Source of the DNA: Oryzias latipes
Lineage: Eukaryota; Chordata; Actinopteri; Beloniformes; Adrianichthyidae
DNA: 64,000 nucleotides
Reading direction: 5' to 3'
Assembly (NCBI RefSeq): GCF_002234675.1
Contig: NC_019876.2
Coordinates: 22,545,398 to 22,609,397, forward strand
Made by a program: the position numbers and the translations under genes. Shown piece by piece: positions 11,334 to 43,841 of the stretch (its first letter is position 1; each line of letters begins with the position of its first letter). Under the pieces are notes generated by a model. The model saw nothing but the letters and a program-made list of their open reading frames with translations. It did no database searches and was not told the DNA's origin.

Positions 11334-12746
11334 AGGCTGGAAGGAAGCAGGAAACCAGCAGCGCACACGATAACCCGCCCTGAACCTACAGCTGTGAGGG
11401 GAGACAGGAAGTGAAAGTCCTCTGCTGTGGTCCTAATGCGAACGCTTCACAAAATGTGTTTAGAGCAGCAGCAGTTCAGCTGCATGTATGTAACTTTAGG
11501 ATATGTCTCAGCCATGAAACCTTTGCTGATGTTCCTCAACTGCTTCACCCTCAGGTTTCTGCCGGCACAGCTTAAACATGCAGAAGTTAGAGATTAATGC
11601 GTGCTTTAAGCTGTTTGATTTTAAAGTGGAGACTTTTATTCAGAAGAGGTTACTTGTCCAGAAAATGTCAGATAAGAAAACATCAGTTTACCTTAAGGAT
11701 AATGGAGAACATAAAATATCAAACCAGTTAGTGATTAATTCATTTTGTACATCTATTTATCAGGAACTCAAAAACAGGAAATAAAAAAGAAGGAAATGAA
11801 TTGTTCATAGTTCTGAAGATGCTGCAAAGCTCCAAATCTAGTCCTTTCCGAACTCTGATGGAGATCCATCAGCGGTTCTGAGAGTCTGTGTGTGTCTGTT
11901 CCCATCACTTCTTCAGAACCTTGTTGGCTGAGCGCCAGCCTGAAAGCCTGAAGGAGCAGGACTTTTGCTGTGAGCAGCCTTTCTGCTGGGAGTAACTCAT
12001 TACTAAAGGACCGAATCACAAAAACACACAACTTTTTGCTTTGATAAAGTACAGGAAGGAATTAGTGCAATATTCTTCCAAAGAATTTTTGACTTTTTAC
12101 ATCAGACCAGTCGCTTAAAGTTTTAAAAAAAGAGACAAAGAGGCATTTCCTAAAGAAGAAATGACACAAACCGAATCTGTTTAAAGATCATGCTCAGGCT
12201 GTTTAGGCTTCAATAATCCAAAAATGTTTGTGTTCCTAATAAATGTATCCATTTCTGTTTGTATCTTTCTGCTTTATCCATGCCTGTACTTCTTTATTTG
12301 ATCTTTTTATCTAAAGATTCAAGATCAAAAATTGTTCTTCAAGCAAATAGCCTTTATTTTCATTCGTGTGGACTAAACTGCTTTCATTTGACTAAAAAAG
12401 AGGATTTTTTTTAACTTTATATTTTTTTTATTTACTTTAAAGAAAAGGGGGATTTTAATAGTAATACGTTTACCATAAACCTTCATCTTAATGTAAAACT
12501 CTACATGGTATGTTTGTCATTTTAGACTAATGTATAGAAAGCTACTTGAAAGAAGGTGCAGGACTTTGAATTTTATTTTAAGGAATTACTTTTGAACAAT
12601 AATAAGAAGTCATGTGGAATGTATTACAGTTTGGAAGTTCCCTGTGATCTGTTTTTCTTTTCCTGGCTGCTGTGCGGCTGGACCGCTGCTGGCTTTCACT
12701 GCTCGTGTTTATTTTTGCTCCTTCCTCTGGTTTTTTATCTGCCCTA

Positions 12747-31349: not shown

Positions 31350-31358
31350 AGAATCAGT
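31350..31358 (+). other. 9-bp target duplication, left (AGAATCAGT)
   Basis: Identical to 43833-43841 and present once at the empty site 57633-57641. Confidence 0.95.
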
Positions 31359-31399
31359 ATGGCAGGCCATTTTAACATTAAAAGGCTAAGTTTGACTAT

Positions 31400-31745
31400 C
31401 CGGAATGAACATTGTAGATATCAGCAACGTATTTCTCACTAGTCGTAATTACATTTTGGATAGTTGGAATTGTAATTCAAGATATCTGTAACGTAATTGT
31501 GACTAGTCGAAACGACCGATAGAGATATCTATAATTCAGTTTTGCCTAGTCAAAACTGAATTACAGATATCTGCAATGACGTCATTGAAAAACGACATTC
31601 AACTCGTCACACATCTTAAATGACAATTGTAGATATCTGTAATTCAGTTTTGCCTAGGCAGAATGCAAAGTAAAGATATCTCAAACGTCATCATCCCTAG
31701 TGTAAATGTTTGTGCATGACGTTGCTCTATTGAGGATATCCATAA
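31400..31745. repeat. Left subterminal array of AGATATCT motifs
   Basis: Seven GATATC sites, mostly inside AGATATCTGYAA-type units, interspersed with CTAGTC / GACTAG and ACGTCA motifs. Probably transposase-binding repeats. Confidence 0.8.
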
Positions 31746-31818
31746 ATACGCAATTTCCCTTATGGGAAGGGGATAATCACGTCCTTATTTCTATGAACAG
31801 AGGCAGAAAGAAGCAGTC

Positions 31819-34225
31819 ATGGCGTTGGCTGTAATCGAAAAAAACACCAGAAAATGGCATGAAATTCAACGAGCCCTCACACAGGGGATTTGTGGAGAGA
31901 GAGAACGTCGTTCTATTGAAAACTGTGAAAGAAATCTCGGAAGAATTGAACATTTGCTGTCACCAGACACGAATAATGAACTCAAAAGCAGTTTGGCTCA
32001 ACTGAAAACTATAATAGACGCAAATTTCCATGCTGGGGAAGACAGAAGTTTCTCTGTCAGGCGCGTTAGTTCAGGTGAGTCTCACTGTATTCATGTTTTA
32101 TACGCATTAAATTTAAAGGGGAAGTCCGGCCGTTTTTAGCAAATAAGGTTTTCAGCGAAACACGTGAATGTTTCACTTTACGCGGAATGTTTCAACCCAG
32201 ACCACTCTACGTTTTATTTATGTTTTAGTCCATTTAATAACTTTTTTATGTAGAAGAATATATGATCATTTAACATGGGCCATGTTATCATATATTCTTC
32301 TGCCAAAAACAGTATAGAAACCATAAAATAATTAGACCACCATTTACTTACATTTAGCGACTCTATTGTTATTTTTATAATAATATTAATACAATTGTTA
32401 TATAATGTAATGCCACACTTATATATGTGAATGATATTATCAGAAAACTGAACATTTGGCATTGTCAGTCTTTTATTTGTGCTTAATGAATAAAACAACA
32501 GTGCCGTGCATTTATGGCTATACTAACTAGAAATAATTATTTAGATTTATTAATATGTGCAATCATTAAATGTGTTGGTCTTACACCACTCTTATGTCCA
32601 CTGGTCACAGCAATAAATATTTGCATTTCCACAAGTCTCTCCATTTCCAGTGTATCTATTTTATTCATTAACAATATTTTATTTTAGTGCATGTATGAGA
32701 ATTAGTATGATGATACATTAAAAAAATAAACAGTCCACTGCTGCTTAAAGGCTTCAACTTAGTTTACTTTTTCTTTTTGTAGGGAGAAGAGGCCGACCAG
32801 CCATTGATGTTTCCCGAGAACAGATTGAATTTCTGCTGAAGCAAGGCCATACAATTTCAAAAATCGCTGAAATCCTGGGATGCTCCTCATCATTTTTGTA
32901 CAAGAAGTCGAAGTTGTTGGGTTTACCTGTTAGAAGTATGCTGTCTGCAATAAATGATGGGGAACTAGAACAACATGTTAGGCAACTTCAGAGCCAATAT
33001 CCTAATTCTGGAAATGAGGTAATTGGAGGTCTTCATCTTTAGGCTGTATTTCATTCACATTTGTGTGCTATTGTTCTGGGAATATCATGCCAATTTAGAT
33101 ATTTTGACAAATCTGTTGCAGATGATCAGAGCCCTGTTGCGTGCACAGGGTGTGCTTGTTACACGGTCCAGGGTGCGTGAGATGTTGACACGGGTCAATC
33201 CTACTGCTGCTGCAAGGAGATGGAGCCAGACAGTTGCAAGACGTGTTTATCATGTACCTTACCCCAATAGTTTGTGGCACATTGATGGGAACATGCGTCT
33301 CATAAGGTTATTATTACTATACTTGTCATATTTTTTTATATTTTGAAAATACCTTCAGCAAGTAGAAAAAGTTTACAGCTATATTGTTTCCAGACTACTG
33401 TCAATAGTATTATAATCTTCTAGTAATATATGTTTTGTAACCTTTCTTTCTAGATGGGGTTTTGTGATTCATGGTGCAATTGATGGATACTCCCGTCTGA
33501 TTACTTACCTCAACTGCAGCACAGACAATCGTGCCACAACAGTGCTTTCCCAGTTTTTGAAAGCAACATGCCTCTATGCCCTACCATCAAGAGTCAGATC
33601 TGACCATGGTGGTGAAAACGTCCTCGTTGCTTTTTTCATGCATCTAGTTCAAGGACTTGAACACAGAGGGTTCATAACCGGACGATCAGTTCACAACCAG
33701 AGAATTGAACGCCTTTGGCGTGATGTATTTCTGCATGTGTTGCAGCACTTTTACCTCATGTTCTACTCCTTAGAGGATTCAGAGGTTCTAAACCCAGATG
33801 ATAATGTCCACAGACTTTCACTGCAGATTGTTTATCTTCCTGAAATTCAAAAAAGACTGGAGCAGTTTAGACAGGCCTGGAACTTCCACCCGTTGCGAAC
33901 AGAAAATAATCGCACACCATCTCAACTCTGGACAGAGGGCATGCTCAAAAACATTGCAACAGACAGCACAGCTGTCAACAATGTGTTTGGGGAAAATCCT
34001 TACAGCGACCAAAACATTGATGCCATCCTAGCGCAGTATGGAATTCAAACACTGCCTCCACTTGAGGAAGAGTTCCCAGCTGTTCATGTAGAGCCACCTC
34101 AACTCATCCTCACTCAGCAACAACAGACATCTGTACACAATGCAATCCAACACCTTTCGGATCTAAAGTTAAAATATCAGGCTTGCTGTACTGCTATTAT
34201 CAGTATTTTGCAAACACAGGTATAG
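31819..34225 (+). CDS. Integrase-like DDE transposase, four exons
   Basis: Exons 31819-32074, 32783-33018, 33122-33306 and 33454-34225 join in phase into 482 aa; all introns are GT-AG. The N-terminal exon is helical and charged. Residues about 90-135 form a helix-turn-helix (RPAIDVSREQIEFLLKQG, ISKIAEILGCSSSFLYKKS) that should bind the ends. The core has Asp219 (LWHIDGN), Asp276 (VRSDHGGEN) and Glu311 (SVHNQRIERLW), with 34 residues between the last two, as in retroviral/IS3-type integrases. The C-terminus (LTQQQQTSVHNAIQHLSDL) may be a coiled coil. It would cut and join the element ends in the nucleus. The neighbouring UBX-HECT gene converges on it. No damage seen. The family is not certain; eukaryotic IS3-like transposases are one candidate. 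Confidence 0.85.
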
Positions 34226-35194
34226 TTGAATTCCAAGCCCAGAGACAAAAGTTCATTGGCTGCATATGTGATCCAGGAGTGAAAGACTGCTTTGAAGTTT
34301 GATTTTCTGTTAAAATAAGGTGGTATAGGCAGTGCAGCTGATGGAGCTAATGCTAGGTGTGCTAAATTTAGCACACTTTTGGTGCTGTATTATGTTTTGT
34401 GTTTGTTTTTTTTGTAGTACTGTTGGCTGACAATATTTGTATGATTCCTTTCTACTTCCATTGTTTTCCAATTTGTAGAAAAAGTGGAAAAGCATCTCAT
34501 CTCCTTTTCAATGAGATTGAAATTGAACAAAACTTTATATATGAAAAATTGGATTGAAAAGATTAATAAAAAAGATGAATAAACTGGTAATGTATGAAGA
34601 ACAATGTTTAATGGTTTGAATGAGAATTTTAGATTAACAGTTGAGGAGAGAGGTTTAACTGCCAAAAACACCCTAACTTCAATCCACAAGTGGGAACAGA
34701 CTGAGTGGAGATGGGGACAGGTTACTGTGACAACAGTTGAGGTTGACATCCAGCCAGACTTTGTTTGCCTTCTCTGTACTCACCGTTGTACATTAACCAA
34801 ACATACTGGCTGTTATGAGTGATTTCAAACTTACCAAATTATAAGCCAAATAATTACAGTTTGTTAATAAAGGATATCTAATTCGTTAGATCAACCTCAG
34901 TGTTCTCATAGTAACCATGAACCATAAGCCCAATATGTGTCTCGTATAATCTAAAGAAAAAATACATCTTCAAAAAAAATAAGATATATAAACATAACTT
35001 AAAAATAATTTAAAGACAAAAAAAACTAGACAAGTTTGAGCTAGCTCAAAAAGCTCAATATTCAATCAACTGAATTGAACTGTTACTCATGGAAAATGAA
35101 CAGGATTACTGTTCCTACATTTTTGTTGAAGTGACCTGCTTCAACAGACAAAAACAGATCCAAGTTGTGGATCTATGTTTTACACACTGTGACA
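34226..35194. other. Intergenic region between convergent genes
   Basis: AT-rich. Plus-strand AATAAA signals at 34565-34570 and 34578-34583 can end the transposase mRNA. No clear AATAAA was seen for the minus-strand gene. Confidence 0.4.
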
Positions 35195-38100
35195 TCATGC
35201 AAGTCCAAAGGTTGGAGCTTGCAAAATTCCCTCAATCATGTGTTGTTTGAAGGCTTCATAGGAAGAGTGCAGTGGCAGGCGGAGTACAATAATACAAGTA
35301 TTTGCTTCTGGGAAGATTCTGTTGCCCTCATGAAGGAACTGAATTTGTGGACGGTGTGGAAATCCCAGTGGAGGCACTGTTGAAGCTCCAGATGTAAACT
35401 CCAATACCTTCTCTAGGGTGACTGGACTGCATTCTCCTTCTGTAACACAAGAAAGTGGTGAGAAACCGGATTTTATGTTTAGGCCACAACGTCTAGCCCT
35501 AACCTTTGGTATGCGTTACTTTGGAGCAATGGGCACACTGACAGGGGACCACAAAAGCCTCAGTGTTATTATAACAAATAATAAATAGCATACCTTCAAT
35601 ATCAATTAACCAGTCACGCCAAAAGCATATTGTCATGTTTTCTCGGTCTCTCCTGTTGCTGCCTTGCACAGAGAAGTCCACATCAAATAAAGTGCATAGG
35701 TCCTTCGCCTGCAGTGGAATCTCCTCACTGACAAACATATTGTAGAACACTGCCGGATTCTTCCTCAGCTCGTCCAGTAAACCAAGTGTTTTTAACCCCT
35801 CAACAAACCTATACAAACATTTTAGAATGTGTGAATCGTCCTGTACAAATGAGTTTAATTTTTCAGACAGGTAAGACAGGTGAGGCACTTACTGGTCCAG
35901 GGCAGTCGCCAATCTTCCATTGACGAAGAAGTCTGCAGCTGACTGGACAAGGGAGTCCTTCTCCTCCATGCTGGACACATGTCTTAAGGCACCTATAATG
36001 CTGAGACTATCTGCTGCCTCTGCAATTGCACCGTTCGCCTCTCGGACTGTTGTTGCTTCCTGTATCTAAAAAGAAAGACGCAGGGAAAACAAAAAAAAAA
36101 GAGAAAAAAGATAGTGAGTGGCTTGTAAAGATACCTTCCCTCTATAAATGAGATGTTTAAGCAATAAAGCACTGGTGTTCATGAGAATGTTCATGGATAT
36201 CCTAACGGCTATGGTTCGGCCACAGCCATGAGGCTGAAGGCCAAGTGGTGCAGGTAACCTGCACACGTTTGAAGCCATTCATAAATCATAGAAAATAAGG
36301 CTGTTTCACTGTACTGTCTATTCAATGTATAACAACTTTTCCCTGCTTACTTTTATTAACTGTTCCCTGAAAGCATGGTCACCAACTTCATCCACCGTGG
36401 CCGGGGGGGTTGGTATCCCACAGATTTGATTGAAAAGTCTTTCGGAAAAGAAATGTGGACCGACTCCTCCATGGACCACACACACAGCAATCATTTTTGC
36501 CACCCACATGTACAGTTTAGTCTGCAAAGCTAAAATGAAAGAAAGAACAGTCAAATCTTGCTCTGCTGTAATGCTTGTTCATTTAACACCTTCAAATGCT
36601 CTGATTAATAATAGTGCTACTACAACTTTATTGCACCTTTCAAACCATGCTTCAAAAAGGTGATTCAGTACATTAAAGAAATGAAGAATCATGGAAAAAT
36701 CCTAACCAAGAGTTAACAAATTCATGGCAAAATAACTAAAAAGACAATAAACAAATGAAGAAACCTGCCCAATACATAAAAAAACAATCAGAACAAACAA
36801 ATCAGAGGAGAAATAAAGGAGCAATCATGTTTCAGTGATATACATTTCTAGAATTGTGCCAGTTGAAGGAGTACAGTCCTAAGAATTTGGGCTTCCCTAC
36901 CTTGAGTATCAAGAGACAACTGCCGGTCTTTCTCGTGTCCCTCAAAAATATTTGACTGGTGGACGGCCCTCATCAACAGCCTTAGGTACTCTCTAGTCGG
37001 GCCACCTTCATCAACTGCCCCTTCACCATTGTCATCTTCATCCACAAACACAACATCCAATTTTGCTTCAGGGTTGAAGAACCTACGCTTGAATGCCCGC
37101 AGGCTACAAAGTAAAACATTATCCCTGCACACATTTATTTGGTTGCTTGTTGGACAGAATCTCTCATCAACTTTGCTGACCATTTTTTTCAATATGGTCT
37201 GTAGATCAATTCTGCAAACAAAGAAGTTAATGCATTTTATTTTACCACCTGATTAAATGTAAAATGATATAGAAAAAACATCTACATACACTAGAAAAAT
37301 ATAAAATCAACTTAATGAGAAAAACTCACTCATCCACAGGTCCTCCGATGTGATGTGTTGATACACGTGATTGATTTTGTGAAACAGACTCATCTTGCTC
37401 ATCAAGAATAATGATTGGTTCTTGGACAGAAGAAGGAGAAGGTGATGGTTCATCATAAAGAGTCAGGATTTCTGGTGGTTGTGAGAACAGAGTGAGCAGT
37501 GGCTGGGTGGAGGGCTCAGGCAGCAGAGAGCGGTCGCAGGGCTCAGGCAGCAGAGAGCGGTCGCAGGGCTCAGGCAGCAGAGAGCGGTCGCAGGGCTCAG
37601 GCAGCAGAGAGCGGTCGAAGGGCTCAGAGAGACTTGGCTGGGTGGAGGGCTCAGGCAGCAGAGAGCGGTCGCAGGGCTCAGGCAGCAGAGAGCGGTCGCA
37701 GGGCTCAGAGAGACTTGGCTGGGTGGAGGTCTCAGGGAGTGATGACTGACTGTGAGATGTAGGGTGTAGGGCATAAGCTCCAGTTTGTTGATCTGAGAGA
37801 ATTTCCTGAAGACAAACATGCAGAATACATGAGCTTGCACAAATGAAAACACATTCAGTTTTCATTTGAGTCAGGAAATAAAAATGCAACACATTTACCT
37901 GTACATCCTTATTTGAAAACCAAAGCACATATAGAGTTGAGGATGCTGTAATACCATAATCCATTATTGACCCAGAGGAACTGCTCCCAACTGATCTTGA
38001 TGATGCAGCTTCTTGCACCACAAAGATTTCACTGGCAATATCATCTTGTCCCACAAAGTCAAACAAGATCTAAAAAGATGTGAAACAGTCAAGTTTTATA

Positions 38101-41100
38101 ACCCATTGAACCACTGAGAAGACACTAGATATTTTCTTAAGCTGAACACACATCACCTGGATTGGCTCTGACAAACGAAATTTCCTCATATTGGTGTGTC
38201 CATTTGGATATTTAAATTTGATCAACACCCCATCTGAGGGTTCCTCACATGCAGACATTCGCTGACGTCTTGCCTCAATAGCCTGAAATGCGATCTCATT
38301 TAAAAAACAAACAAAAAAAACCCACCCTTCCTCTAGTTTATCAAACTAATTTATTATAGACAAACCTTTTGACGTCTTTCCTCACAAGCCTGATAGACTA
38401 GTTTCTTCCTCTCCTATTAAAATACCACATTAAAGGTATGCATACATTATGTACGAGAATATAAATCATACGTAAAACTTGGAAGCATTACCTTCTCCTC
38501 ATCCACCAACAAACTTGTATTATAGTCTTGGTCTTGCTGTGCACGTATTGCTCGCCATTCTTGGAGAGCCTAAAGTAGAAAAAAAAAGGCATCGCTCAGA
38601 AATCACCATTAAATAGTAGGCTACAGGCACATAAAATGGATAAATACTATTCATTCTATACAGTGACAAAATCGGTTACCTGATTTGCAACCACACTTTG
38701 AGCTTGGGTACTCTCAGCCACAGGCCCGGTCTCATCTTGTACCAGAGCAATTGAGAGTGGTGGGAATGAATTTATGGATATGGCAGAGGATGTGGATGCC
38801 ACCTGGTTGTACACAGAAAATCCAAATGTTTTCACCTTCAGCCAGAGAACACACACTCATAGTGGCAACAAAATAAATCATTAGAAAATATCTATAAGTA
38901 GTAAACATATATATATATACATACATACATACATGTATGTGTATATATATGTGTGTGTATATATATCTATATCTATATCTATATTTATATCTATATCTAT
39001 ATCTATGCATAGTAGACATAAAATCCATTAGATATGCAATCATTTTAATATGGACCTGATCTGAAACCACTTGAGAGGTCTCATCTACTGCTGGAGCTGC
39101 GAGTGGTGCGAATGACTTCAGGGACATGGCAGAGGGTGGTGATGTTACCTGAGCATAGAGAGGGTAACTTCAGTTATAGGTATAGACATTACAGAGAACA
39201 CATTTATATGATTGCAGTGTGATTTAAATCCCTGTGTATACTTCCATACCTGCAACACAGTGGCTCGTGGCACGATGTAAAGCCTGCTTTTGCCAACAAC
39301 AGCTTTAAGTTCCTTCACAGAACTAACTTGCAATTTCTGGATCTTGCGTCCTTTGCCGGTCCTTGCCAATTCAAAGCCTACCAAATTTAAACTGATGCGA
39401 GGGTAGCTTTGGCAAACAAAGTTGTTTAATTCAGATAAACTCCAGTTTAACCCAATCTTTGAGTTGGTGCGTCCGGCCTCCATTGACTCGTGCACAGGTT
39501 TTCCTAAAAATGGAAGTGTAAACATCAGTATAATCAGTTCCTAGTGGCAAAGTAACAAATCACAGTGTTGCCAAACCCCAAAAGTAGAGCTGAGTGACTT
39601 CTACAGTTAACCTAAAATCATTTGTGTTTCTACCAAGTTTACAGCTTTGAAACTAAATTAACCCTACACTCCAAAGAAAATTGCATAACATATGACAGAA
39701 GAAAGAACCTGGTCTCACTCACACACCCATCACACATTTGACCATATGTGAAAGAACATTAACATACAATATATGGTGTAGCTTAGTGTCTGAATGCACC
39801 GCCCAGATCCTCACACTAACCGTAACCACCATTGACTAACTTCCGATAGATGATGCAAAAGGATTCATATGGAAGTATTCCTGGACACTTTCAAAGTGAT
39901 GCCTTGGCATGAGAAAGTATTGCATAGGTGTAACTATTAAAATGGCTACATGGAAACTTATGGAAATGCATCAAAAAGTAAACTTCTCTGCAATATTTCT
40001 TTAAAACAAATGCTAAGTGTATTAATATATTCAAATGTTTGCCAATATATACAGTATAACAAATCGGACCATACAGGCTCAAGCGAACATAAAATCCAAA
40101 GCAGCTCATTCTATAGCTTTCTTTGCAAGATGGTTAGATAATAAGGTGTAAAAGTAAATAATTCTAATCTGCTTCAATCTCATGTTTACCTAATCCATGT
40201 TTTGCCAGTTCCTCAAGTACTGTTGTGGGGGGCAGAAAACCATTATCTGGCCCTGGAAGGAGGAAAAGTTTTGCCTGCCAAATAGGGTTTTCCCTGCGGC
40301 CACCAGATCCTTCTGTAAAACAAATACATAATGGTCAGCAGTGATTCTTGGATAAATTGTGCCTGTGCGTCTATGAGAGAGATTCACACTAATACACTTT
40401 ATTAATGATGCTGACATGCACGATATTCTTGTTATTTTAAATGTACGAGACTATGAAACTTTCCATTTTATTTTGTCATGGAAGCTGATCTTTAACAGTG
40501 ATGAAAGTCAGGCAAGGAAAAAAAATCCCTGAACTTTTCTTTGAGCAATATGACGGGCGTGGAGCGAAATTTTTTAAAAATACATGGTCGTAGATGCATT
40601 CTGTTACATTCTGGCAGCTAGTTATTCACTTCTTAATCAAGAAACTAAGACTAATTGGAGCATCATGATTTGTCATTCAAACCCCTAGTTTGACTTCTTA
40701 AAAGAGAATTTAAGTAACACAATCCTTCAATCTAAGCTTTTCCTAAAAGCTGCAAAACATACAATTGCTCAAATATTATTACATCAAAGCCCCAAATAGC
40801 AAAAAGAACACCAATAACTGATATTCTATGAAAGTACCTCATTTATTTGAACGATTTCTGCTTTAGAAACACGGTTTTCTCAAACCATCATTATATCAAA
40901 ATATGGGATCTGCTTTAAACTATCTTTCTATAACATAATACATCAATATTTAACACCAATACTTAGTAATCTGGGAAATATTAAAAACACACACGAAATT
41001 AAACATTGTAAACATTTTTTAAGGGAGTGTGGGTCCAAACCACCAAATACTTACGACGCTGAAGTTGGCTTCCGATTCACAGCTTCCGATTCGCGAAGGC

Positions 41101-43060
41101 ACTAAAGAAACATTCCGCTGCATTTTTCGCATTAAGATCACCCAAAACCGGGTCCTGTTCAAAAACCGCTGGACCTGGACTGCTCAAACCTGGATTAAAT
41201 TATACATTAGATACTAAAGAACACATTAAACACAGTTTCTGATTTGTGAAACCTTCCTCTGATTTGTGAAAATCTGAAATAGGTTGATTTTTTATCGCAT
41301 TTTACGCACTGAGTCCACTTCGGACTAGGTCCTGTTCAAAAACCACTGGACCTGGACTGCTCAAACCTGGATTAAATTATGCATTAGATACTAAGGAATA
41401 CATTAAATACAGTTTCTGATTTGTGAAACCTTCCTCTGATTTGTGAAAATGTGAAATAGATTGATTTTTACAGCATTTTACGCCCAGAGTCCACCTTAGA
41501 CTAGGTCCTGTTCAAAAACCACTGGACCTGGACTGCTCAAACCTGGATTAAATTATAATTAAGATAGTAAAGAACACATTAAACACAGTTTCTGATTTGT
41601 GAAACCTTCCTCTGATTTGTGAAAATGTGAAATAGGTTGATTTTTATAGCATTTTACGCACTGAGTCTCAAAATCTCAACATACAAAAGAAACTGGGAAA
41701 CAGATGTCAGATTGGACAAATATATGGTCATGGTTAGCATGTACCCCTGACTTAAGTTTTGTTTTTTTGTTCAATATTTCTTGGTTTGTTTTCTGATTTA
41801 CTTTAAAGTTCCTGTTATGGTGTTTTGCTTAAAGTTGTCCTTCCCTTGTCCCCAATATCCTTACATTGCATAAAATTCGATGAAATGATACTATTTCCCA
41901 CAGCGGTGTTTGAACAGGACCCGGCCTGAAGTGGACTCAGTGCGGAAAATGCGATTAAAAATCAACCTATTTCACATTTTCACAAATCAGAGGAAGGTTT
42001 CACAAATCAGAAACTGGGTTTAACGTGTTCTTTACTATCTAAATTATTATTTAATCCAGATTTGAGCAGTCCAGGTCCTGCGGTTTTTGAACAGGACCTG
42101 GTCTAAGGTGGACTCAGTGCGTAAAATGCGATAAAAATCAATCTATTTCAGATTTTCACAAATCAGAGGAAGGTTTCACAAATCAGAAACTGTATTTAAT
42201 GTATTCCTTAGTATCTAATGCATAATTTAATCCAGGTTTGAGCAGTCCAGGTCCAGTGGTTTTTGAACAGGACCCGGTTTTAGGGTGGTTTTAGTGCGAA
42301 AACTGCAGCGGAATGTTCCTTTAGTGCCCTCGCGAATCGGAAGCTGTGAATCGGAAGCCAAATTCAGCGTCGTCAAATACTTAATTAATGTCAATAATAT
42401 GTTTGAGCAAAACTGAACTAAATAATGGTAATTAGGCATAAATACAAATAAATTAGATAGAGAAATGTATGACCATGGTAAGTGGGTTAATGGCGTAAGT
42501 GTGCGTTATTACTTTTTTAACGCACTTCGCGGAGGCAACCGTCCGACGCGAAAAAAGTAATAACGCACACTTCGTCAGCCATTACCCTTACTTAATCGCT
42601 GCATAATTTCCACCATAACTAATTGTTTTTGAACGGAGAGAAATTCTGAACAACAATTGTACTCACCTCCAACATTTGTTTTGCGAACGTACGTTGAAAA
42701 GAAATCGCCATAGACCGTCACCGTGAAGACAGTCTAACAGTTTTTGTCGTCAATGAATAATAATATCATTTTAAATGAACGTCTGACTCCAGTACATTCA
42801 CAAAGAGACCCTATAAGCATTTTGACAACTGCTTTGCTAAGTTATTAAACAAGTAACGTTTCCCCGAACTTCGGATATAGCACATTAGCAAATGATGTGA
42901 AAAGAAAATTACCTCGAACAAGATGTATTCGCCGGCGAAATAGTCGTCTTGTTGTGGAAAGTAAGGTTGAATCATTACTTGCCGCCAGCTCCTGTCTAGC
43001 ACGTGCTGCAGCATTGAAAAGACGATTAAAAACAGTTTCGACTGCTGGCTGCTCCGACAT
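35195..43060 (-). CDS. UBX-HECT ubiquitin-ligase-like protein, 15 exons (G2E3-like HECT)
   Basis: Exons 43060-42913, 40312-40190, 39503-39250, 39148-39056, 38802-38680, 38569-38492, 38413-38366, 38282-38157, 38069-37899, 37805-37330, 37211-36901, 36529-36351, 36065-35893, 35808-35594 and 35439-35195 all splice in phase into 920 aa without a stop. Residues about 248-306 resemble the charged helix before UBX domains (QDQDYNTSLLVDEEKERKK). About 307-388 is UBX-like (VLIKFKYPNGHTNMRKFRL). A Ser/Pro linker with 9-residue repeats follows. About 550-920 is a HECT domain (VVFVDEDDNGEGAVDEGGP). The catalytic Cys is near residue 888 (ANTCIIVLRLP, codon 35296-35294), about 32 residues from the end as usual. 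HECT enzymes pass ubiquitin from E2 to substrate through this Cys. Fish genomes hold many similar genes labelled G2/M-phase E3 ligase-like. Its role for the transposon is unknown. Confidence 0.85.
37505..37735 (-). repeat. 27-bp coding minisatellite
   Basis: Within exon 10 of the UBX-HECT gene. 27-bp units encode PEPCDRSLL, alternating with PSTQPSLSE units; about eight units in all. The length is a multiple of three, so copy-number change keeps the frame. The plus-strand ORFs over it are shadows. Confidence 0.9.
38909..39006. repeat. Compound (TA)n/(CATA)n/(TATCTA)n microsatellite
   Basis: Simple repeat in an intron of the UBX-HECT gene, between exons 4 and 5. Confidence 0.9.
41053..42373. 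mobile_element. Foldback element with 9-bp target duplication in intron 1 of the UBX-HECT gene
   Basis: 1,321 bp, flanked by perfect CAAATACTT at 41044-41052 and 42374-42382. The termini begin ACGACGCTGAA and stay inverted for more than 80 bp (both include GCTTCCGATTCACAGC). Inside, a unit of about 177 bp containing GGACCTGGACTGCTCAAACC is repeated three times on the left arm and twice, inverted, on the right arm. It has no ORF. Nine-base duplication and long inverted arms resemble non-autonomous Mutator-like elements. Confidence 0.8.
42478..42600. repeat. Long hairpin in intron 1 of the UBX-HECT gene
   Basis: The arms GTGTGCGTTATTACTTTTTT (42500) and its complement (42553) are exact over 20 nt and extend imperfectly through TAATGGC/GCCATTA to TAAGT/ACTTA. 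The loop is about 32 nt of GC-rich sequence (CGCGGAGGCAACCGTCCGACG). Possibly a MITE. Confidence 0.7.
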
Positions 43061-43158
43061 GGTGCTAATCAGTGCTAACTACAAGCAGGTGCGATTTGAA
43101 TGATTACAACAACACGCTCTGCTCCTCCCCTAAAGTGCGATGCGGACCTAATTTGCAT

Positions 43159-43800
43159 ACAGATATCTGTGACGTCATTTCGCCTAGTCAAAACTCTAAT
43201 TCAAGATATCTGTAATTACATTTTGACTATCCTAAATGAACATTACAGATATCTCAAGTTTCAGATATCTCTATTCAAATTTCATTTCAAGATATCTGTA
43301 ACTTGATTATAGATATCTACAATTAAATTATGACTATCCCTAACTCCAGTTTGAGATATCTACAACGTCATTTTGACTAGTCATAATTCCAGTTACAGAT
43401 ATCTACAACGTCATTTCGCCTAGTCAAAACTTAATTTAAGATATCTGAAAAGGAACATGTAGATATCTGAAATTGACTTGAATTAAAGATATCTTTAACT
43501 TGAGTTTTGACTAGTAAGAATGAAAATGTAGATATCTGAAACTTGAATTACAGATATCTACAATTCAGTTACAGATATCCGTAATTCATGAAGTGGATAT
43601 CTGCAACTGAATTGTAGATATCTGTAATTGTAAACCCCATACAAATGAATGGTGAAAGTGATGTCATTTGTCCTAGGAATAATATCTTTGAGGATATCTA
43701 AAATTACGATTACGGATAGGAAGAATGTAGTTGCGGATATCTGAAATGTTCTTTTTGACTAGGCAAAACTCAAATAAAGATATCTGCAACACACATCCAG
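43159..43800. repeat. Right subterminal array of AGATATCT motifs
   Basis: About 19 GATATC sites in 0.64 kb, in units such as AGATATCTGTAATT and AGATATCTACAACGTCA, together with GCCTAGTCAAAAC segments. The same vocabulary as at the left end. It also covers the upstream region of the UBX-HECT gene, so it could influence its promoter. Confidence 0.85.
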
Positions 43801-43832
43801 TCTAGCCTTTTAATGTTAAAATGGCCTGCCAT

Positions 43833-43841
43833 AGAATCAGT
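43833..43841 (+). other. 9-bp target duplication, right (AGAATCAGT)
   Basis: Partner of 31350-31358; directly follows the right inverted repeat ending GGCCTGCCAT. Confidence 0.95.

Follow-up and report, generated by a model that had tools for sequence, protein, structure and literature searches.

An IS3EU/GingerRoot-type transposon of medaka whose UBX-HECT ubiquitin ligase gene is probably a long-standing partner of the transposase

A complete gene for a HECT-type ubiquitin ligase lying inside a DNA transposon of a fish raises two questions: what kind of element carries it, and whether the gene belongs to the element or merely travels with it. The locus is on chromosome C18 of the medaka Oryzias latipes (734-Mb genome), in a window of 64,000 nucleotides, which is the whole stretch analysed and in which positions are counted unless a chromosome is named. 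A preliminary description made from the sequence alone had reported a 12.5-kb transposon with convergent genes for an integrase-like transposase and a UBX-HECT protein, and found no clean fit to a known superfamily. We conclude that the element is most probably a class II transposon belonging to IS3EU/GingerRoot, whose structure, open frames and co-located genes are observed directly and whose UBX-HECT gene has long been part of the transposon lineage in fish and would aid or control transposition. What is unexpected is the recurrence of a HECT ligase as the partner of distant transposase relatives within one genome, not a new superfamily.

The ends of the element were set by comparison with other copies. 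The inner 30 bases of the terminal inverted repeat (TIR) gave 67 genome matches with up to three mismatches, against none for the reversed control, and 23 fetched TIR-paired copies were compared with the window copy (n = 24). In 22 of the 24, ATGG..CCAT is preceded by a T and followed by an A; with TATGG ends an exact target-site duplication (TSD) is obtained in 16 copies (6 bp long in 11, 7 bp in 5), while with ATGG ends only three copies show an exact repeat, of 8 or 9 bp. The inverted termini described earlier are indeed perfect, which none of 100 shuffles reproduced, but they measure 31 bp rather than 30 bp. The 9-bp duplication proposed for the window copy gives way to the 7-bp GAATCAG flanking TA..TA ends; it had appeared longer because the A before the left GAATCAG and the T after the right one match the element's end bases by chance, and a 9-bp duplication was seen in no other copy of the 24 compared. 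Reading by eye brings in a 31.9-kb pair on chromosome C4, with a 6-bp TSD, and a C5 copy of 2.35 kb, with none, and takes the exact TSDs to 17 among all 26 paired copies (12 of 6 bp; 5 of 7 bp, window included), where 9 bp had been anticipated. The C4 stretch (C4:10360368-10392222) lies between family termini flanked by the matching 6-bp duplication CGCAGA.

With the ends and the duplication length corrected, the element shows the published marks of IS3EU/GingerRoot, and the earlier view that no known superfamily fits cleanly is not supported. The available text of PMC10045372 describes complete IS3EU families as always having TA..TA termini, usually a 6-bp TSD and no HHCC motif, and places IS3EU and GingerRoot in one lineage, with Ginger1 possessing an HHCC domain and Ginger1/2 standing apart in the tree; fungal IS3EU elements end in TAYGG..CCRTA and have a 6-bp TSD (PMC12730594, available text). 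The medaka family has TA..TA termini, a TSD that is usually 6 bp (12 of 26 paired copies) and an integrase-like DDD/E core without HHCC, the first aspartate (D219) lying within the expected 100-300 residues.

The integrase-like character of the transposase, already proposed from the sequence, was confirmed by Pfam, with a match to rva_4 ('Integrase core domain', E=1.2e-100) and a weak helix-turn-helix match ahead of the core; no zinc-finger integrase family was among the nine Pfam families listed for the protein (up to E=1). The catalytic triad D219, D276 and E311 (D-56-D-34-E) is invariant in alignments of 19 and 39 sequences. A gadid protein spans the entire transposase at 88% identity, and the structure model of this homologue (mean predicted local distance difference test score, pLDDT, 82) resembles IstA, the intasome integrases of Rous sarcoma virus (RSV), mouse mammary tumour virus (MMTV) and prototype foamy virus (PFV), and TnsB. 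The relatives number 2281, and among the 120 listed are proteins of fish, insects, molluscs, echinoderms and a coral.

That the two genes converge and splice without a stop was likewise upheld, with GT-AG sites throughout the four exons of the transposase (482 aa) and the 15 exons of the UBX-HECT gene (920 aa), and 969 bp between the gene ends at 34225 and 35195. The cargo gene is complete as described, its frame being open and Pfam recognizing both a HECT domain (E=1.9e-12 over residues 634-919) and a UBX domain (E=4.9e-5). The catalytic cysteine of the HECT domain lies in FPEANTC near the C-terminus, as in HECT E3 ligases, so that the protein is predicted to be one. An NCBI medaka protein (LOC105358325) is identical to residues 1-547 of the model, and the HECT half is supported by a loach protein (P0123, 960 aa) with 82% identity over 100% of the query, in which the UBX domain falls below the Pfam cut-off. 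The fold predicted for the loach homologue agrees with HECT structures, at a mean pLDDT of only 62 and with long low-confidence stretches. The FPR loop is the p97-binding motif of UBX domains; no FPR motif was seen in the UBX stretch of 20 aligned homologues, the window protein having QEAASS at that place, and a canonical p97-adaptor role is therefore not claimed. The UBX part may serve a purpose other than p97 binding. Between UBX and HECT, exon 10 holds a coding minisatellite of 27-bp units (37464-37766; SEPCDRSLLPEP-type repeat).

The recurrence of the gene pair was examined by searching the whole medaka genome with each protein; only the best candidates were scored, so the counts of unpaired genes given below may be too high. 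With the first HECT query, 21 of 28 HECT loci had one of the 74 transposase loci no more than 15 kb away, compared with a mean of 0.08 and a maximum of 2 in 2000 trials of random placement, which was uniform and took no account of repeat clustering, and 19 of the 21 pairs were tail-to-tail, 0.7-2.8 kb apart. A second HECT query took the count to 23 of 35 loci, of which 21 were tail-to-tail and two head-to-head; among the convergent pairs the gaps were again 0.7-2.8 kb in 19, the other two measuring 4.5 and 9.8 kb. The transposases of 19 convergent pairs (those besides the window and its C19 relative) are only 33-46% identical to that of the window. Pairs with near-equal scores and gaps occur on C24, C1 and C6 (1452, 1452 and 1458) and on C2, C5, C1 and C1 (1446, 1447, 1445 and 1445), which suggests recent movement of the pair as a unit, although this is known from gene positions and not from termini. 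In other fish, relatives of both proteins are recorded on contigs of equal size, as in Triplophysa rosa (92,196 bp), and under the Cirrhinus locus tags QQF64_029828 and QQF64_029834; these records, in which adjacency was not read, are consistent with pairing. Since relatives of the two genes lie tail-to-tail at some twenty further sites, the ligase seems to be a functional part of these elements and not cargo picked up by chance. Multi-copy transposase relatives with 40-42% identity and open frames of about 370 aa were also seen (C6:12730941, C23:14821764, C1:34234558, C9:14018521 and others), and no HECT gene was found near them in this best-candidate search.

The way in which such an element would work can be outlined from its parts. 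The transposase, with its helix-turn-helix N-terminal part and retroviral-integrase-like DDE core, presumably binds the termini and the phased subterminal palindromes and would join the ends to target DNA at points staggered by 6-7 bp, which would leave a copy with TA..TA ends. The HECT domain, with its catalytic cysteine kept, would most likely ubiquitylate either the transposase or a host factor acting in restriction or repair, and this ubiquitylation would in turn aid or control transposition. The dense subterminal palindromes noted previously are borne out: 20 of the 21 occurrences of AGATATCT in the window are near the two ends of the element, with 0.97 expected in the window, and GATATC, CTAG and the half-sites CTATC/GATAG are mostly spaced 21-22 bp apart, about two turns of DNA. 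Phasing at 21.5 bp is strong on the left (Rayleigh 0.95, 12 sites) and lower on the right (0.53, 26 sites), where the spacing breaks at 16, 26-27 and 55 bp and the peak is at 22.2, the periods having been scanned. Judging by their layout, the arrays are probably binding sites for the transposase or a host factor.

Closer relatives of the window element in medaka are mostly reduced. Besides the window copy, the 26 paired copies comprise 12 of 2.3-2.5 kb, four larger ones that share the ends, and nine of 112-1460 bp. Around an unrelated middle, the 2.3-2.5-kb copies retain element positions 1-343 at about 96-98% and 11692-12476 at about 96-98.5%, and their only gene DNA is 66 bp from HECT exon 1 (42989-43054, 83-89%) and the first 12 bases of that exon (43049-43060), so that the HECT start codon is retained; the start codon and the 66-bp piece are possibly kept because a promoter or end-binding region overlaps them. 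The copy on C19 is decayed, its transposase DNA being 94% identical and its transposase match interrupted by one in-frame stop; its HECT pieces lie 2.8 kb from the transposase in the same tail-to-tail order and contain no stop among the 156 codons compared. A further transposase remnant (86%) lies at C18:25.096 Mb, and on C2 the family has two loci with HECT alone, at 24.15 and 24.17 Mb. Within its family, no copy but that of the window was seen with both genes open; the window copy is perhaps autonomous, as far as its reading frames indicate.

The origin of the HECT gene was approached through its relatives. A profile of the distant members found 209 proteins, the 120 listed including fish, sea cucumber and frog sequences as well as sturgeon, skate and turtle proteins that bear the name G2E3 and contain zinc-finger domains. 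In a tree of 33 HECT domains, in which the outgroup AREL1 has a very long branch, the window protein pairs with loach (97/86) in a group including butterflyfish and grouper, and the HECT regions of medaka and loach, 94% identical, are closer to each other than to those of other fish in the tree. This grouping departs from the relationships of the host fish and suggests horizontal spread of the HECT gene among fish, as far as a gene tree can indicate it, hidden paralogy being a possible alternative. PEANTC is retained in all 14 close fish HECTs of the tree and ANTC or AHTC in 30 of 30 non-G2E3 rows, AREL1 included, while three sampled G2E3 proteins have, by eye, S, S and Q at the position of the catalytic cysteine. 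A constraint grouping the other 28 HECTs against G2E3 and Spea was not rejected (approximately unbiased test, p-AU 0.373), and the topology is therefore compatible with either capture from or donation to the G2E3 line. The bolder proposal that animal IS3EU elements carry their own HECT ligase as a required co-factor of transposition, and that the cysteine-less HECT of G2E3 came from such a transposon by gene fusion, is distinctly doubtful. Two predicted proteins join this HECT domain to a CARD-caspase or a major histocompatibility complex (MHC) class I domain (P0148, Epinephelus; P0172, Xiphophorus); they reflect either gene annotations that run together across an inserted transposon or transposon HECTs that have been exonised. 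The available text of PMC5638112 mentions a repetitive element of sculpin, unclassified, that matches G2E3 by blastx.

These data have to be set against other explanations of the locus. A HECT gene carried as passive cargo, that is a host G2E3-like gene captured once and without a role, would account for the zinc-finger host-type G2E3 proteins among the listed relatives, whose HECT region is 32-36% identical. The same could be said of the differing partners of fungal IS3EU elements (alpha-kinase, TET; PMC12730594, available text), which point to partners being swappable, and of the ratio of nonsynonymous to synonymous substitution (dN/dS), which at 0.53-0.93 gave no clear sign of selection in four same-family comparisons (C2 twice, C19 twice) made with decayed copies from which codons with a stop or gap had been dropped. 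Passive cargo would, however, be expected to decay, whereas ANTC/AHTC is kept in every non-G2E3 row and the convergent pair recurs with transposases as distant as 33-46% identity, and we regard this explanation as unlikely. It is much less probable that the pairs are independent genes joined by segmental duplication or nested insertion. The head-to-head twins on C12 and C19 do resemble a duplicated segment in which the genes are ordered differently, and the distant pairs are known without their termini; against this, the window holds both genes inside one TIR pair with a TSD, and the 21 convergent pairs are scattered over many chromosomes, 19 of them with gaps of 0.7-2.8 kb and two with gaps of 4.5 and 9.8 kb. 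A new superfamily with 9-bp duplications is suggested by the window copy when read with ATGG ends and is extremely improbable given that such ends yield exact 8-9-bp repeats in three of 24 copies and TATGG ends exact 6-7-bp repeats in 16.

Several observations nevertheless weigh against a transposon lineage with the ligase as a long-standing component. No transposase was found within 15 kb of 12 of the 35 HECT loci and no HECT near 52 of 75 transposase loci, the random placement ignored repeat clustering, and in the head-to-head twins (C12:15136515-15150087 and C19:13411471-13425940) the genes are about 10-11 kb apart. Each distant pair, known from its genes and not from its termini, is only a putative single element. 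The preliminary description had proposed checking that full copies carry both genes, and the outcome is mixed: within the family, gene-interior DNA was present in just one (C19) of 40 fetched stretches with family termini besides the window, and it is among the distant pairs that the tail-to-tail arrangement was found, at 19 places. The dN/dS values belong here too, though they carry no information on intact elements. Across species, transposase and HECT identities in eight presumed pairs, seven of them picked for contigs of equal size, were not significantly correlated (Mantel r 0.16, p 0.26), and co-divergence of the two genes is not supported. LOC105358325 ends after exon 10, reading into the intron, without the HECT half. 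An exact TSD is absent in 9 of 26 paired copies, that of the window is one base longer than the usual 6 bp, and the IS3EU/GingerRoot assignment rests on published marks and not on a tree with reference proteins.

The positions of the features are collected in Table 1. One of them, a 1.3-kb fold-back insertion with arms made of 176-177-bp tandem units in intron 1 of the HECT gene, is a later passenger, possibly Mutator-like; the same intron contains, at about 42500-42575, a compact inverted repeat whose arms are GTGTGCGTTATTACTTTTTT-like, perhaps a tiny miniature inverted-repeat transposable element (MITE).

Table 1. Features of the transposon and its flanks (positions in the window)
Feature	Positions	Strand	Basis
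Whole IS3EU-type transposon, TATGG..CCATA, 12,476 bp	31358..43833	.	31-bp perfect TIR; ends set by other genome copies
Left target-site duplication, GAATCAG, 7 bp	31351..31357	+	comparison of paired copies
Right target-site duplication, GAATCAG, 7 bp	43834..43840	+	comparison of paired copies
Left TIR, 31 bp	31358..31388	+	perfect inverted match; inner 30 bases searched in genome
Right TIR, 31 bp	43803..43833	-	perfect inverted match
Left subterminal array, palindromes GATATC and CTAG, usual spacing 21-22 bp	31389..31760	.	motif spacing
Right subterminal palindrome array	43158..43802	.	motif spacing
Transposase gene, 482 aa	31819..34225; exons 31819-32074, 32783-33018, 33122-33306, 33454-34225	+	splice model, Pfam rva_4
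UBX-HECT gene, 15 exons, 920 aa, catalytic motif ANTC	35195..43060	-	splice model, Pfam HECT and UBX
Fold-back insertion in HECT intron 1, later passenger and not element proper	41053..42373	.	9-bp TSD CAAATACTT

In the literature searched, no paper joining IS3EU with HECT was found, Repbase lying outside the search, so that a fish IS3EU consensus with HECT may already be filed there; searches on HECT with DNA transposons, integrase, teleosts or target site duplication found none on such a pairing, and a HECT partner is not mentioned in the available text of PMC12763893, PMC9587614 and PMC6431247. If the lineage does keep an E3 ligase through deep divergence, it would be a rare eukaryotic DNA transposon encoding an enzyme that acts on host protein turnover, and medaka supplies a copy with both frames open. 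Many of the names 'G2/M phase-specific E3 ubiquitin-protein ligase-like' given to fish proteins may be explained in the same way, as 23 of the 35 such loci in medaka adjoin a transposase gene.

Among known systems, Ginger1/Ginger2, Merlin and Mutator share with the medaka element the character of DDE transposons, Ginger being integrase-like as well. The TSD of Ginger1 is about 4 bp. Ginger1 was set aside on the 6/7-bp TSD of the medaka family and the lack of an HHCC finger match in Pfam, and Mutator and Merlin on a TSD of 6/7 bp rather than 8-9 bp and the lack of such transposase families among the Pfam matches. Host G2E3 has a related HECT domain (32-36% identity) but differs in its zinc-finger domains, in having no transposase and, in the three proteins sampled, in having no cysteine at the catalytic place. 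Styx of Zymoseptoria is IS3EU-related, with a DDD/E transposase, TIRs, 6-bp duplications and further coding sequences; it is fungal, and the available text of PMC10853768 does not mention a HECT gene. The nearest likeness is to IS3EU/GingerRoot itself: TATGG..CCATA fits the fungal TAYGG..CCRTA, the 6-bp TSD agrees, and the DDE core lacks HHCC and has its first aspartate 100-300 residues in (PMC10045372; PMC12730594, available text). The medaka element differs in its phased palindrome arrays, which the available text of the IS3EU sources does not mention, and in the 7-bp TSD of the window copy. TET-positive fungal IS3EU elements also carry a second gene, for an alpha-kinase, opposite to the transposase (PMC12730594, available text), and where the fungal partners are alpha-kinase and TET, that of medaka is UBX-HECT.

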